From an uncultured Clostridia bacterium (GTDB lineage Bacteria; Bacillota; Clostridia; Oscillospirales; CAG-272): a stretch of 10,027 nt of DNA. The stretch lies in contig CAMOHW010000020.1 of the NCBI GenBank assembly GCA_946615525.1, positions 1 through 10,027 of the forward strand, in the 5' to 3' direction. Below the pieces are notes generated by a model that saw only the letters and a list, made by a program, of their open reading frames with translations, was not told where the DNA came from and ran no database searches. Positions 965-6,016 of this stretch are shown in pieces. How positions within the stretch are numbered: the stretch's first letter is position 1; each line of letters begins with the position of its first letter. A program made the translations under genes and the position numbers.

Positions 965-1002
965 TTTTTATTCCTCTCGATCTTTCAGCAATCTGCCCCC
1001 TT

Positions 1003-1031
1003 ATTGTAACATGAAAAAAAGGGGAAGTCAA
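1003..1031 (-). promoter_or_regulatory. Sigma-A promoter with extended -10 for the SGNH hydrolase gene
   Basis: On the minus strand there is TTGACT (plus positions 1026-1031), a 17-bp spacer, then TACAAT (1003-1008). The -10 is preceded by TG one base away, making it an extended -10. The predicted start of transcription lies about 30 bp before the ATG at 964 and leaves room for the AGAGGA ribosome site. No operator or leader structure is apparent. Confidence 0.8.
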
Positions 1032-1063
1032 GAAAAATGAAATTACAAAAAACAAAAAAACAC

Positions 1064-1092
1064 TTGACAAACGAAAAAAAGAACGGTATAAT
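1064..1092 (+). promoter_or_regulatory. Perfect-consensus sigma-A promoter for tRNA-Ser
   Basis: TTGACA at 1064-1069 and TATAAT at 1087-1092 are separated by exactly 17 bp, a full consensus match. A-rich sequence upstream of the -35 could act as an UP element. Transcription would begin near 1099, giving a leader of about 42 nt before the mature tRNA 5' end. Such strength is expected for a stable RNA gene. It faces away from the SGNH hydrolase promoter, with about 32 bp between the two -35 boxes. Confidence 0.92.
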
Positions 1093-1140
1093 AAAAAAGT
1101 CCGCAAGACACTGCAAACGGCATTTTGCGGATGAGTACAC

Positions 1141-1231
1141 GGAGAAGTACTCAAGAGGCCGAAGAGGCGCCCCTGCTAAGGGTGTAGGCCGGGCAACCGG
1201 CGCGAGAGTTCAAATCTCTCCTTCTCCGCCA
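1141..1231 (+). tRNA. tRNA-Ser (anticodon GCU)
   Basis: A 91-nt class II tRNA. The acceptor stem pairs GGAGAAG (1141-1147) with CTTCTCC (1221-1227), followed by discriminator G and an encoded CCA. The anticodon stem 1168-1172/1180-1184 encloses the loop CTGCTAA, giving anticodon GCT at 1175-1177, which reads AGC and AGU. A long variable arm, as expected for serine tRNAs, follows at about 1185-1203. The T arm is GAGAG / TTCAAAT / CTCTC. The D loop is the usual serine type. The gene has its own promoter and terminator and appears monocistronic. Confidence 0.98.
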
Positions 1232-1272
1232 GAAAAGGCTCGTCTTTTGTATATCAAAAGACGAGCCTTTTC
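1232..1272 (+). terminator. Intrinsic terminator of the tRNA-Ser transcript
   Basis: A perfect 17-bp inverted repeat (1232-1248 with 1256-1272, core GGCTCGTC / GACGAGCC) with a 7-nt loop begins on the first base after the tRNA CCA. The right arm ends in CCTTTTC, so the U-run is part of the outer stem, and the hairpin could terminate in either direction. It separates the tRNA unit from the A+T-rich gene downstream. Confidence 0.85.
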
Positions 1273-1342
1273 AACTAAATCCATCTTTCGCCTTTCGGGG
1301 CCTCGGTAATAATTATGATACGATATTATGGAGGTATAAACA

Positions 1343-3304
1343 ATGGACAATATAAAGCGCACTCGTTTTTCGAAAGACCCTATTACTTTTCAATTTGATG
1401 CAACAGACTTTTTCAAAATACACGAATGGTTTTTTAACAAGGATAGTAAGAAATTTCACCTCTTGGATGAAGAGCGTAATTTAGAAATTTACGAGAAATA
1501 CTATAAGTTTACGAGCAAATACCTCGTTTGTTTGTTCGTGGGAGTCAAACTTACTAATTTCGGACAGAGCGAAAGACCAAAGATTGAATTCATTCAAGTG
1601 GTGGAGCGCGATGGGAGCGAAATAGATATATTGAAAACAAAGATAAAGAGTTTATACGCCCATCACGCAAATCCAGATAGAATAAAGGCGATAGAAAAGG
1701 TTATAGCTTTAATCCCTCCTTATGAATCACAAGTTGTGCCTCGCGAACAAAAATCTTTTGGCGACTATGTGGTCGATTTAGGTTACAAAACTTTTCTCAA
1801 AAACTTGCAAAAAGAGTATGTCGTTTTAGATCTTGAAACAAATGGGTTGAGGGAAAAATATGATGATGTCCTGTCCATCTCCATTTATGATCCACAAAAC
1901 GGCTTATGCTATAATCGATTCCTTCCTTTGGATTATCAGCCAGTGGTATTGACGACAAGAATCAACGGTATAAAGCAAGAAGATGTGGAGTCTTGTGGGC
2001 ATATAACTCAAGAAGAATTAGACGAACTAATAAGCACTTTCAAGTTAAAAGAACGTATTATTCTTGTTTATAGCGGAGGGAATGGTACGTTTGACTCGTC
2101 GTTTTTGTGTAATTATTGTGCGCGCCACAAATTATGCGGAATAGAAGGGTTACAATATGAAAACATAAAAGACTATACGCCTTATCTCGGTATGGGTTAC
2201 GAAGGAATGCGAACAAAAGATAATCTTTGTAAATTATTCGGAATCGAGGGCGTGACTGATATACACTCGGGTGCAAACGACTGCTTATTAGAATGGAAAT
2301 TATTCGAAGCCATTAAGGTTACAAGACCATTTTTCAAGAACGGCTACCTATTCTCTTTTTCGGATGAGTATATTGTACCGATTACAATGCTCCTTGCCGA
2401 GCCGCAACTTGGAATGTACAAAGGGATAGAGAGAAGATTTATTGTGGGAGTTCCCTCGTTAGTATATCAATATAATTTTCCTGAAGATGTATCAGAAAGA
2501 TTAAAGCGGTTTCCTAACAATATAACGGGAATTGCTCTTGAAAACGCTATTTATGGGTTGATATCACCGGAAAAGCAAGATAACTGTGCTTTCCTCTTAG
2601 AGAACAAAAAGAAATGTCAGTGTATTGGTTATCTCAAATCAAACCGAGAAGAAATCCCAATTGCAACGCTAGACGATGGAACAATCAAATCGCTTGATTT
2701 TCATCATGACGCATTTATAGACGAAGTCAATGCAGTGTCAAGGCTTTTTGCGGAAAATATTGGCGATACAATAGGGTTTATTAAACATAAAATCTTCTGC
2801 GATGTGCCGATAAAAAAAGAAGAGCTGATTATTTCCGAAGACAAAAAAGTTTTGGCAATATGCGATCTTTCCAGTGATAAGACGGTTCTTGAGATAAAAA
2901 CGGGAAACGTATTATTCCATTCTCCGCGCTTAGATTATGAATATATAATAGTGCCTGGTTATTCACAACAACTGTATTATGAAACAAATGGGCGTAGTCC
3001 GTTTATAATGTCTATCGTATTCGACGTATTTGGCAAAGTAACCATTAACATTTATTCTGTCGAACTGCTGGATATGACAGAAGAAGCAAAAGGCAAAAGG
3101 CCAAAACTTATGGATCGAGAACAGAAAATAATTGAATTGATAAAAGAGAATGAGCGTATCTCTATACCCAAAATGTCCAGGCATTTACATGTATCTGGAA
3201 TAACAATCCAACGCACACTTGAATTTCTGAGAAGGTGGGGATACGTAAAAAGAGAAGGGAGCAAGACAGCAGGCAGATGGGTGATTATTCCTGACGAAAC
3301 ATAA
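1343..3304 (+). CDS. Multidomain DEDDh exonuclease with possible second nuclease core and C-terminal winged helix
   Basis: A 653-residue soluble protein with no family name I recognise as a whole. Residues 1-155 are an unidentified domain. Residues about 157-325 form a DnaQ-type DEDDh 3'-5' exonuclease. Its motif I is VLDLETNG (D163, E165), motif II NGTFDSSFL (D251) and motif III HSGAND (H308, D313), so all five metal and catalytic residues are present. Residues about 330-440 are unassigned. Residues about 455-550 contain ICDLSSDKTVLEIKTG and QQLYYE, which fit the D...ExK...QxxxY pattern of RecB/Cas4-like PD-(D/E)XK nucleases (D508, E517, K519, Q542, Y546); this is suggestive only. Residues 590-650 form a winged helix (IIELIKENERISI... 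GYVKREGS...GRWVI). The start has GGAGG 8 nt upstream. No convincing promoter is visible; TATGAT at 1314-1319 lacks a good -35. The gene is A+T-rich, solitary, and probably acquired by transfer. Confidence 0.85.
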   Translation: MDNIKRTRFSKDPITFQFDATDFFKIHEWFFNKDSKKFHLLDEERNLEIYEKYYKFTSKYLVCLFVGVKLTNFGQSERPKIEFIQVVERDGSEIDILKTKIKSLYAHHANPDRIKAIEKVIALIPPYESQVVPREQKSFGDYVVDLGYKTFLKNLQKEYVVLDLETNGLREKYDDVLSISIYDPQNGLCYNRFLPLDYQPVVLTTRINGIKQEDVESCGHITQEELDELISTFKLKERIILVYSGGNGTFDSSFLCNYCARHKLCGIEGLQYENIKDYTPYLGMGYEGMRTKDNLCKLFGIEGVTDIHSGANDCLLEWKLFEAIKVTRPFFKNGYLFSFSDEYIVPITMLLAEPQLGMYKGIERRFIVGVPSLVYQYNFPEDVSERLKRFPNNITGIALENAIYGLISPEKQDNCAFLLENKKKCQCIGYLKSNREEIPIATLDDGTIKSLDFHHDAFIDEVNAVSRLFAENIGDTIGFIKHKIFCDVPIKKEELIISEDKKVLAICDLSSDKTVLEIKTGNVLFHSPRLDYEYIIVPGYSQQLYYETNGRSPFIMSIVFDVFGKVTINIYSVELLDMTEEAKGKRPKLMDREQKIIELIKENERISIPKMSRHLHVSGITIQRTLEFLRRWGYVKREGSKTAGRWVIIPDET

Positions 3305-3344
3305 AATAGGCGATACACATAAGCTAATCAAAGTGCTACATTAC

Positions 3345-3350
3345 AAAGGA
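3345..3350 (+). promoter_or_regulatory. Ribosome binding site fixing the SASA esterase start
   Basis: AAAGGA lies 6 nt before the ATG at 3357. The same frame is open from a GTG at 3333, but that start has no Shine-Dalgarno site and would put eight polar residues before the signal peptide. The ATG at 3357 gives a proper MKKILLF signal start. Confidence 0.8.
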
Positions 3351-3356
3351 ACCATT

Positions 3357-4277
3357 ATGAAAAAAATACTCTTATTTGTTTTATTGATCGCGCTGATTTT
3401 TTGCGGCATTTCCTGCAAGCAAAAAACGGTGGCGACCCCGATCGGCGCGCTGACCTCTTTTGCAGTGGAAGGCGGCGTCAGCACGGTCACAAATCAGCCT
3501 GCAAAGGTGGTGCTTCTCTATGGTCAGTCCAACGCTACCGGATGCGCCATCAACGCATATTTGAATCAAAAATCTCCTTCCGACTACGCCGAAGCCGAGG
3601 CCGGATATGCAAATGTCCTCATCAACTTCATCACCGAGAACGGGAACAACTCTTCCGGCGGATATTTTGTGCCAACAACCTTGGGGCAGGGCGCTTCCAA
3701 AGATCATTTTGGCCCGGAAGTGGGTATTGCGAGTGATTTATCTGCAAGATTCCCCAATGAAACCGTTTTCATCATCAAATATTCCTGGGGCGGAAGTGTT
3801 TTGGCAAACCAATGGCTGGATGGCAACGGCGAGCGGGGCGAACTCTATGCGGCGGCGCTCAACTTTACCAAAACCTCGCTCGACTTTTTGAGGGGGCAGG
3901 GCTACCTCCCCGAAATTGCGGCGGTCTGCTGGATGCAGGGGGAAAGCGATGCCGTTGACAAGGGAACCGCAAAAGAGTATTACCGCAACACCAAAAACTT
4001 TGTGAGCGATTTGCGCAAAGACTTGAAAGATTACAGTTCCACTCCCTTTTTGTTCCTTGACGCCGGTATTGCCGAGATTGATGTTTGGAAACATTTTGAA
4101 ATCGTCAATCAGGCAAAGGCACGCTTTGCCAAAACCGATGACAACAACATCTATTTCAGCACAACAGCCCTGGGGCTGACGACCGATCAGGAACCCGAAG
4201 GTTCCCCCGATATTGCTCACTACGATGCGCAAAGCGCCCTTATCCTGGGAAAAGAATTTGCCAAATACATTCGCTGA
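3357..4277 (+). CDS. Secreted lipoprotein acetylesterase, SASA / CE6-like family
   Basis: A 306-residue SGNH-type carbohydrate acetylesterase of the sialate O-acetylesterase (SASA, DUF303) group, predicted to remove O-acetyl groups from sugars outside the membrane. The N-terminus is a signal peptide (KK, then hydrophobic 4-16) ending at GISC, so Cys20 is the likely lipidated residue; the -3 Gly makes the lipobox imperfect. Family motifs run in order: LLYGQSN with nucleophile Ser58, FGPE at 118-121, WMQGESD at 192-198, and DIAH with Asp285 and His288. The length is normal for a one-domain member. The next gene, an ABC exporter, starts 17 bp after the stop, so the two are probably co-transcribed. 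The 52 bp upstream show no clear promoter, so transcription may start inside, or read through from, the preceding A+T-rich gene. Substrate unknown. Confidence 0.87.
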   Translation: MKKILLFVLLIALIFCGISCKQKTVATPIGALTSFAVEGGVSTVTNQPAKVVLLYGQSNATGCAINAYLNQKSPSDYAEAEAGYANVLINFITENGNNSSGGYFVPTTLGQGASKDHFGPEVGIASDLSARFPNETVFIIKYSWGGSVLANQWLDGNGERGELYAAALNFTKTSLDFLRGQGYLPEIAAVCWMQGESDAVDKGTAKEYYRNTKNFVSDLRKDLKDYSSTPFLFLDAGIAEIDVWKHFEIVNQAKARFAKTDDNNIYFSTTALGLTTDQEPEGSPDIAHYDAQSALILGKEFAKYIR

Positions 4278-4294: not shown

Positions 4295-6016
4295 ATGCTC
4301 AAACGATTCATTCGCTATTATCGCCCACACCGGCTCATCTTCTGGCTGGATATGTTTGCCGCGCTTGGAGTTGCCGTCATCGGCGTGTTGTATCCTATGG
4401 TCACGCGCCGAATGCTGAACGATTATATTCCCCAAAAGGAATACAAGATGATCGCCATTATGGGCGCCGTTTTGCTGGGCGTTTACCTTGCCCGTATGGG
4501 GTTCAACTTTTTTATGCAGTATTACGGCCATGTAATGGGCGTCCGGATGCAGAAACAGATGCGCGCCGACCTGTTTGGGCATATTGAAACCCTGCCATAC
4601 AGTTTTTTTGACAACAACGAAACCGGAAGCCTGATGTCCCGCCTGACCAACGATTTGTTCGATGTCAGCGAACTTGCCCATCACGGTCCCGAAAACCTAA
4701 TTATTTCGGCTATTTCGGTGGTGGTTTCGTTTGTGTATCTCTGCACCATCAACTGGGGTTTGACGCTCATCATTTTTGCCTGCACCCCCTTTCTTTTGAC
4801 CATTTCGCTGCTCCTGCGCCGCAAAATGCGCTCGGCGTTCAAACGCAGTCGCCAATCGGTTGCCGAGATCAATGCCTCGGTAGAGGGGAGCATTTCGGGC
4901 ATTCGGGTGACCAAAGCGTTCAACAACTCCGAAAAGGAAGAAGAGAAGTTTGATGTAGGCAACCAAAAGTTTGTTGCCGCGCGCACCGACGCCTACCGCG
5001 CTATGGGGCAATTCCATTCGGCAACCACCTTTATTACAGACGTTTTCAATGTGGTCATTCTGGTTGCCGGCGGCTTTTTCCTTTACAGCAGGCAAATCGG
5101 CTTGGGTGATTATTCCGCGTTTGTGGTTTCCATTCATCTGTTCATTTCCCCGGTCATGACGCTGATCAATTTTATGGAGCAATACCAGGACGGTGTTACC
5201 GGTTTTGAGCGGTTTGTGGAGATCATGGACACTCCATCGGAAATGGATTCCGCGGGCGCTACCGATATGGGACGCGCCGAAGGAAAAATCGAGTTTCGGG
5301 ATGTGACCTATGCGTATGACGGCAAACATGATGTTCTCAACGGCGTCAACCTGAACATTGAGGCGGGGAAAAAGTTTGCACTGGTTGGCCCTTCCGGTGG
5401 CGGCAAAACCACCATTTGCCACCTCATCCCGCATTTTTATGATGTTTCCAACGGCGGTATTTTCATTGACGGCAGGGAGATCCACTCCATCACATTGCGC
5501 TCGCTCCGGCAGAATATCGGGATCGTCCAACAGGATGTTTACCTGTTCAATTCCTCCATTCGCGAAAACATCCTTTACGGGCGCCTGGACGCCACCGATG
5601 AGGAGATTTACGAGGCGGCAAAACGGGCGAATATCCATGATTACATCCTTTCGCTTCCGGATGGCTACGAAACGCAGATCGGCGAGCGGGGAGTCAAACT
5701 TTCCGGCGGACAAAAACAGCGGCTTTCCATTGCACGCGTCTTCCTCAAAGATCCGCCTATCCTCATTTTGGACGAGGCGACCAGCGCTTTGGATAATGCC
5801 ACCGAAATTCAAATTCAAAAGGCACTGGACGAGCTTTGCCGCGGCAGGACCACCCTGGTGGTGGCGCATCGGCTTTCCACTGTGAAAAATGCAGACGAGA
5901 TCGCCGTCATTGAGAATGGAAAAATTACCGAGCAGGGCACGCACACAGAGTTGGTGGCGCTTGGCGGCAAGTATGCCGCGCTCTACCGGATGCAGTTCCG
6001 GGATTTGGAGGATTAA
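4295..6016 (+). CDS. ABC exporter half-transporter (fused transmembrane and ATPase domains)
   Basis: A 573-residue type IV (MsbA/LmrA/BmrA-like) ABC exporter subunit, expected to act as a dimer in the cytoplasmic membrane. Residues 1-310 are the transmembrane domain, with hydrophobic helices near 14-34, 52-75, 134-153, 155-174, 244-264 and 272-294. The coupling helix follows SRLTNDLFDV. The ATPase domain covers about 331-573. It has A-loop Tyr341, Walker A GPSGGGKT (365-372), Q-loop Gln413, signature LSGGQ (469-473), Walker B ILILDE (489-494), D-loop SALD and switch His525. All catalytic elements are intact, including Glu494. GGAG lies about 10 nt before the ATG. There is only one half-transporter here, so a homodimer is likeliest. 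The substrate (drug, lipid, peptide or glycan) cannot be read from the sequence; the upstream lipoprotein esterase hints at an envelope role. Confidence 0.95.
   Translation: MLKRFIRYYRPHRLIFWLDMFAALGVAVIGVLYPMVTRRMLNDYIPQKEYKMIAIMGAVLLGVYLARMGFNFFMQYYGHVMGVRMQKQMRADLFGHIETLPYSFFDNNETGSLMSRLTNDLFDVSELAHHGPENLIISAISVVVSFVYLCTINWGLTLIIFACTPFLLTISLLLRRKMRSAFKRSRQSVAEINASVEGSISGIRVTKAFNNSEKEEEKFDVGNQKFVAARTDAYRAMGQFHSATTFITDVFNVVILVAGGFFLYSRQIGLGDYSAFVVSIHLFISPVMTLINFMEQYQDGVTGFERFVEIMDTPSEMDSAGATDMGRAEGKIEFRDVTYAYDGKHDVLNGVNLNIEAGKKFALVGPSGGGKTTICHLIPHFYDVSNGGIFIDGREIHSITLRSLRQNIGIVQQDVYLFNSSIRENILYGRLDATDEEIYEAAKRANIHDYILSLPDGYETQIGERGVKLSGGQKQRLSIARVFLKDPPILILDEATSALDNATEIQIQKALDELCRGRTTLVVAHRLSTVKNADEIAVIENGKITEQGTHTELVALGGKYAALYRMQFRDLED

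Follow-up and report, generated by a model that had tools for sequence, protein, structure and literature searches.

A lone, sporadically distributed clostridial gene encodes a predicted two-site nuclease with an exchangeable DNA-binding-type tail

In one CRISPR system Cas4 is replaced by a DnaQ-like exonuclease, that of the Cas2-DEDDh trimmer-integrase (passages of PMC10284694), and genomic islands in Clostridia and Actinomycetes carry DEDD diDNases, frequently with defence genes close by (reported as 41.9% versus 2.1% in the control; passages of PMC11706625). Phage group II intron endonuclease genes are reported to carry domains related to CapR, DUF4379 and DUF723 (passages of PMC12350094). 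Here we analyse a gene in the first 10,027 nucleotides of contig CAMOHW010000020.1 (assembly GCA_946615525.1, from an uncultured Clostridia bacterium; this whole stretch is 'the window'), which joins in one chain, with a DNA-binding end that is exchanged among relatives, two unrelated nuclease types that are interchangeable in CRISPR spacer trimming (Cas4 and DnaQ-like; passages of PMC10284694).

The exonuclease part of the encoded window protein shares its fold and all five catalytic residues with the DnaQ-like DEDDh exonucleases Pol III epsilon, TREX1, RNase T and the exonuclease domains of PolC and DinG, but, unlike in those proteins, it is joined to another nuclease and to a DNA-binding tail. 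The second nuclease follows the RecB/lambda-exonuclease/Cas4/MGME1 clan of PD-(D/E)XK enzymes in the order of its D, E-x-K and Q residues, and that clan supplies its best-ranked folds. Shedu (SduA) defence nucleases are likewise single-gene nucleases; however, they have another domain make-up, the window protein has no SduA match, and Shedu nucleases are not known to have a DEDDh domain. The likeness to the trimmer-integrase (PMC10284694, in part) lies in the use of a DnaQ-like exonuclease by a DNA-processing defence protein, whereas the window protein has no recognised Cas1 or Cas2 part and joins Cas4-like and DnaQ folds in its own chain. The DEDD diDNases (PMC11706625, in part) are a published parallel for defence-linked, island-borne DEDD enzymes, but they are dinucleotide-specific and NrnC-type, while the window protein is large and multi-domain, with no significant excess of defence neighbours of its own. 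Finally, the phage homing endonuclease genes (PMC12350094, in part) share related DNA-binding modules with tails in the second branch of the family (branch 2, below). They differ in having a catalytic domain related to EDxHD/Vsr, and in the window protein a winged helix takes the place of those modules.

Two predicted active sites in one chain

Judged from sequence, the window protein is very probably a nuclease with two active sites in a single chain. The five exonuclease residues that the original prediction had found in place (D163, E165, D251, H308 and D313) are each kept in all 120 listed homologues of the window's branch (branch 1; 120 listed of 291, scoring having been limited to the 7,997 candidates with the most words in common), and in structure searches, which covered the whole protein and the middle domain, this domain showed a DnaQ/RNase H-like fold. 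In the predicted PD-(D/E)XK core, initially proposed as a possibility, D508, E517-x-K519 and Q543 stand at what we take to be the D ... E-x-K ... Q motif positions of the RecB/Cas4/lambda-exonuclease clan, RecE, lambda exonuclease, Cas4 and MGME1 rank nearest in fold, and the residues are kept almost throughout branch 1 (D508 in 118, E517 in 119, and K519, Q543 and E494 in 118 each of the 120 listed). A second branch (branch 2; 120 listed of 584 homologues, retrieved with the zinc-tailed relative from locus L033) retains D508, E517, K519, Q543 and E494 in all 120 listed proteins, and each DEDDh residue in 118 to 120 of them; the complete sets of matches for the two branches may share members.

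Conservation extends beyond the catalytic residues. R89 and E93 of the N-domain are identical in 117 of the 120 listed branch 1 proteins, with a gap in the other three, and N393, E400 and N421 between the nucleases in all 120. At least 100 residues precede the exonuclease in 116 of the 120 in branch 1, and fewer than 100 in every one of the 120 in branch 2. At the genome loci of relatives described below, D508, E517 and K519 are present at 14 of 17; the other three comprise an exonuclease-only open reading frame (ORF; L037) and two ORFs that reach contig ends (L038 and L039).

Profile libraries recognised the two ends of this architecture. In Pfam the exonuclease domain fell just below the cut-off, while the predicted C-terminal winged helix, which resembles those of regulators, exceeded curated cut-offs (HTH_11, 26.2 versus 25 bits; HTH_DeoR, 22.1 versus 21); the remaining matches were helix-turn-helix (HTH) models or chance-like. 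NCBIfam, PADLOC, PHROGs and PDB sequences returned essentially the same two parts, and the NCBIfam exonuclease and PolC models gave at most 27.1 bits against cut-offs of at least 189. A PolC DNA polymerase was rejected (27.1 bits against 1043, with the match limited to residues 155-302), as was a CRISPR-associated CARF/CasR regulator, since the CasR, Csa3 and CARF models match only the C-terminal part (562-641). The suspicion of an unusual domain combination was borne out: no full-length family model was found in the libraries searched, and we therefore class the protein as a variant of mobile stand-alone nucleases. The titles and abstract openings of the open-licence literature searched do not mention the combination, which does not imply its absence from print, and nothing on the family was seen in passages of PMC12839542.

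Some relatives vary this layout. Two loci (L035 and L036) each hold two overlapping neighbour genes, an exonuclease-only gene followed by one with exonuclease and PD-(D/E)XK core; the pairs (L035, 9575-11792; L036, 7397-9614) lie about 230 bases past a tRNA-Glu, and both genes carry the DEDDh residues. In genomes G881 (L068/L071) and G880 (L069/L073) the gene is split across two contig ends at a similar place, near window residue 374. Three long members (P0104, P0107 and P0113) have about 165 extra N-terminal residues, which in P0104 look GIY-YIG-like by eye; a PDB search did not confirm this (one match, E 0.63, to a type I restriction R protein).

Exchanged tails and a sporadic, lone insertion

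Tail modules are exchanged among relatives. Of the 119 branch 1 proteins that reach Q543, 68 have tails of 55-110 residues, 40 of fewer than 25, 10 of more than 110 and one in between, whereas at least two CxxC motifs occur in the tails of 96 of the 120 listed branch 2 proteins. By Pfam, a winged helix ends the window protein and P0011 (above the cut-off) and the L023 protein (below it); DUF4379 is found in the L025, L033 and L034 proteins above the cut-off and in that of L030 below it; and DUF723 is above the cut-off in L034 and below it in L033. A Cro/C1-type HTH ends the L031 protein and DUF4116 ends P0110, while the proteins of L024 and L091 stop soon after the nuclease.

The gene is a lone mobile insertion with a sporadic distribution. 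It begins 111 bases from the end of tRNA-Ser(GCT), has a GC content of 0.371 (remainder of the window, 0.507), and is absent from the same-genus genome G028, in which both flanks are present (80-88% identity) and which is the only relative found with the window's gene order; the solitary AT-rich insertion beside a tRNA gene that was first noted stands. G923, from another genus of the family, has a solitary copy (L091; GC 0.32) flanked by two genes; the same flanks are separated by 61 bases in G969 and by 70 in G1050, both from G923's genus, and by 568 bases in G1011, which leaves no room for the gene. Genuine matches were found in one of the 98 relatives searched and in none of 34 other same-genus genomes (15 other positive genomes among the 98 match only from residue 530 on, mostly in the HTH), in 1 of 391 genomes of the class, 1 of 398 of the phylum and 2 of 295 of the family; these samples overlap, the genome of the window is counted in every one, and completeness is often limited (61% for the window's own genome). 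On these counts a conserved core gene was rejected, and the contexts of homologues differ; with no full-length family model either, the original prediction withstood the check that it had set for itself.

A scan of genome contigs with the window protein alone had confirmed no relative; a pattern scan from the alignment, run on 84,980 species genomes, did, at no fewer than 17 loci (L023-L039), labelled Bacilli, Bacillales, Erysipelotrichaceae, Clostridia and Eubacterium as well as Olsenella and Tractidigestivibacter, which we take to be Actinomycetota. Gene GC is below that of the rest of the locus at 19 of 19 loci, by more than five points at seven (no control genes were measured), and a tRNA lies within 1.2 kb upstream at 5 of 19, the window included (no control was made). 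L027 (1-91) has a tRNA-Ser(GCT), the window's tRNA type, about 1 kb from a relative of GC 0.36 in a locus of 0.62.

A phage or plasmid gene was also rejected. At 1e-5 the window protein matched no phage or plasmid; at 1e-3 the L033 protein matched no plasmid, and its phage matches are confined to the zinc tail (nine records, five annotated as homing (1) or HNH (4) endonuclease). In IMG/VR, query A1 had no match and query A4 only 15 weak exonuclease-domain matches (27-32% identity). The best match in a viral structure library had E 1.0e-6; all 50 listed were DnaQ/exonuclease- or polymerase-type or unnamed, and none of those listed could be traced to the whole protein.

Possible roles: defence, homing or service to mobile elements

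We favour a stand-alone DNA nuclease that moves horizontally and has two independent active sites, its likeliest target being invading DNA, whether from phages or from other mobile elements, a reading that we regard as evenly poised; for action against foreign DNA as such our confidence is about the same. The C-terminal winged helix, or another DNA-binding module in relatives, would hold or recognise DNA and so aim the enzyme, the RecB/Cas4/lambda-exonuclease-like PD-(D/E)XK site would open, cut or resect one strand at an end, and the DEDDh site would take nucleotides off 3' ends; if the sites co-operate with this polarity, both strands would therefore be degraded, and the cell's own DNA would presumably be spared. 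Such a protein would offer a compact one-gene route to destroying both strands of foreign DNA, and its natural tail swaps would allow the direct question of what each tail senses. A broader proposal is more tentative, and we think it somewhat improbable as a whole: a single-gene immunity family, undescribed in the sources searched, would fuse a DnaQ-like 3'-5' exonuclease to a Cas4/RecB-like nuclease as a two-strand DNA shredder. Its target sensor would be an interchangeable cassette (winged helix, treble-clef zinc modules, Cro-type HTH, DUF4116), and the solitary gene, carrying no integrase, would pass between bacteria whose records are labelled as Bacillota and Actinomycetota.

The role in defence or mobile elements that was first suggested for the gene is partly supported, at individual loci. 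At L033 a tRNA-Trp and SduA (PADLOC, E 6.1e-92) are followed 17 bases downstream by the relative, then by two serine recombinases (by eye) and, past these, a type II restriction enzyme and methyltransferase. SngA, SngB and SngC lie downstream of the relative at L025; PDC-S11 is the next gene downstream at L036, and PDC-S04 with Fic the second at L035. At L034, a HEPN_AbiU2 protein, matched by Pfam but not by PADLOC, and a DUF4379 protein precede a recombinase recognised by eye, and PDC-S06 lies further out at the exonuclease-only L037.

Taken as counts, the neighbours show no significant excess of defence genes. PADLOC-positive proteins (1e-20) made up about 9 of 79 near ORFs (at least 90 residues, up to three per side, at the 17 loci; window and L091 excluded); among 90 control ORFs there were about 4 and no more than 5 (Fisher p 0.15, or 0.26). 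Counted per locus, roughly 4 of 17 were positive, compared with up to 4 of 16 in the control (p 1.0; figures entered by hand from result tables). Three of the nine near positives, which were inferred from family names (28 families matched, 25 shown), are one system, SngABC, and at least one, a RecD-like helicase, is probably a housekeeping gene. PDC-S68 and PDC-S53 could not be traced to a locus, neither being among the 10 candidates scanned. Beyond three genes at least 5 of 69 proteins were positive. The control set was drawn from 16 of the 17 genomes, using contig 7 in all but one, where contig 3 was taken, and a contig of 591 bases was dropped; because ORFs were called by a simple longest-ORF script, some calls in GC-rich loci (L027, L030, L037 and L091) are on the wrong strand.

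The best rival, which we consider unlikely, is a homing-type selfish nuclease whose gene would spread through repair of the empty alleles that it cuts, with the exchangeable tails setting site specificity; this would be an unusual two-site type. Its case draws on the lone intergenic insertions in the window and G923, which have no recognised integrase, and on the zinc tail of L033 with its homing and HNH matches, CapR/DUF4379/DUF723-related domains being reported in phage homing endonuclease genes (passages of PMC12350094). Sites without the gene exist (G028, G969, G1050), with flanks too diverged for exact insertion ends. PD-(D/E)XK is one of six known homing families (PMC6083498). Against homing, DEDDh is not one of the six, the two lone sites differ (tRNA-Ser/esterase versus a gap flanked by two other genes), neither a target duplication nor a site sequence in common was noticed, without a systematic search, some members lie in loci with recombinases by eye (L032, L033, L034, L039), and the window protein carries a winged helix rather than zinc modules.

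Those recombinases, of serine or tyrosine type at several loci, would fit instead a factor for DNA-end processing or recombination in the service of integrative elements, comparable to RecE/lambda exonuclease or to a trimmer, that does not attack foreign DNA. The closest folds of the PD-(D/E)XK core agree with this, and a trimmer role is conceivable because a DnaQ-like exonuclease replaces Cas4 in CRISPR adaptation in one system (passages of PMC10284694). Yet no element genes were recognised by eye beside the gene in the window and G923, nor any single-strand annealing protein or cas1/cas2 among the neighbour sequences inspected, and we rate this reading marginally below homing. Far less probable is a host nuclease linked to stress or repair (DNA repair, RNA turnover) that is accessory by chance: the winged helix recalls regulators and both RNA and DNA are substrates of DEDDh domains, but nearly all relatives searched yielded no such gene, its GC is low and its modules are exchanged among relatives.

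The insertion site and its surroundings

Features of the gene and its site in the window
Feature	Positions	Strand	Residues	Remarks
Two-nuclease gene	1343..3304	+		intact ORF, 653 aa, stop included
Ribosome-binding-like site GGAGG	1330..1334	+		ahead of the gene's ATG
tRNA-Ser(GCT)	1141..1231	+		adjoins insertion
Perfect 18-bp inverted repeat, terminator-like	1232..1272	+		3' of tRNA-Ser(GCT), between tRNA and gene
Segment without counterpart at matching site of G028 (L053)	1273..3344 (limits approximate)	+		same-genus genome comparison
N-domain, alpha+beta	1343..1798	+	about 1-152	present in branch 1, absent from branch 2
DEDDh (DnaQ-like) exonuclease domain	1805..2323	+	155-327	D163, E165, D251, H308, D313
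Region between nucleases	2324..2698	+	328-452	N393, E400, N421
PD-(D/E)XK nuclease core	2699..3073	+	453-577	E494, D508, E517-x-K519, Q543
C-terminal winged helix	3104..3301	+	588-653	profile matches

No RNA element in the window matched Rfam at gathering level, and the one match inside the L091 gene is sub-threshold and chance-like. By Pfam, two esterase-type genes flank the gene region, a sialate-acetylesterase-type (SASA) gene at 3333-4277 and a GDSL lipase-type gene at 239-964. The tRNA-Ser unit, with flanking promoter-like sites seen by eye, is inverted between the window (1001-1231) and L053 of G028 (4687-4925), so a -35/-10-like site (by eye) faces the acetylesterase gene in G028 and the GDSL gene in the window. 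Next to the G923 copy (L091, 11425-11543) lies a partly self-complementary repeat of about 118 bp that resembles a dispersed intergenic repeat, with eight further matches in G923 and two in G1050 (about 72-78% identity).
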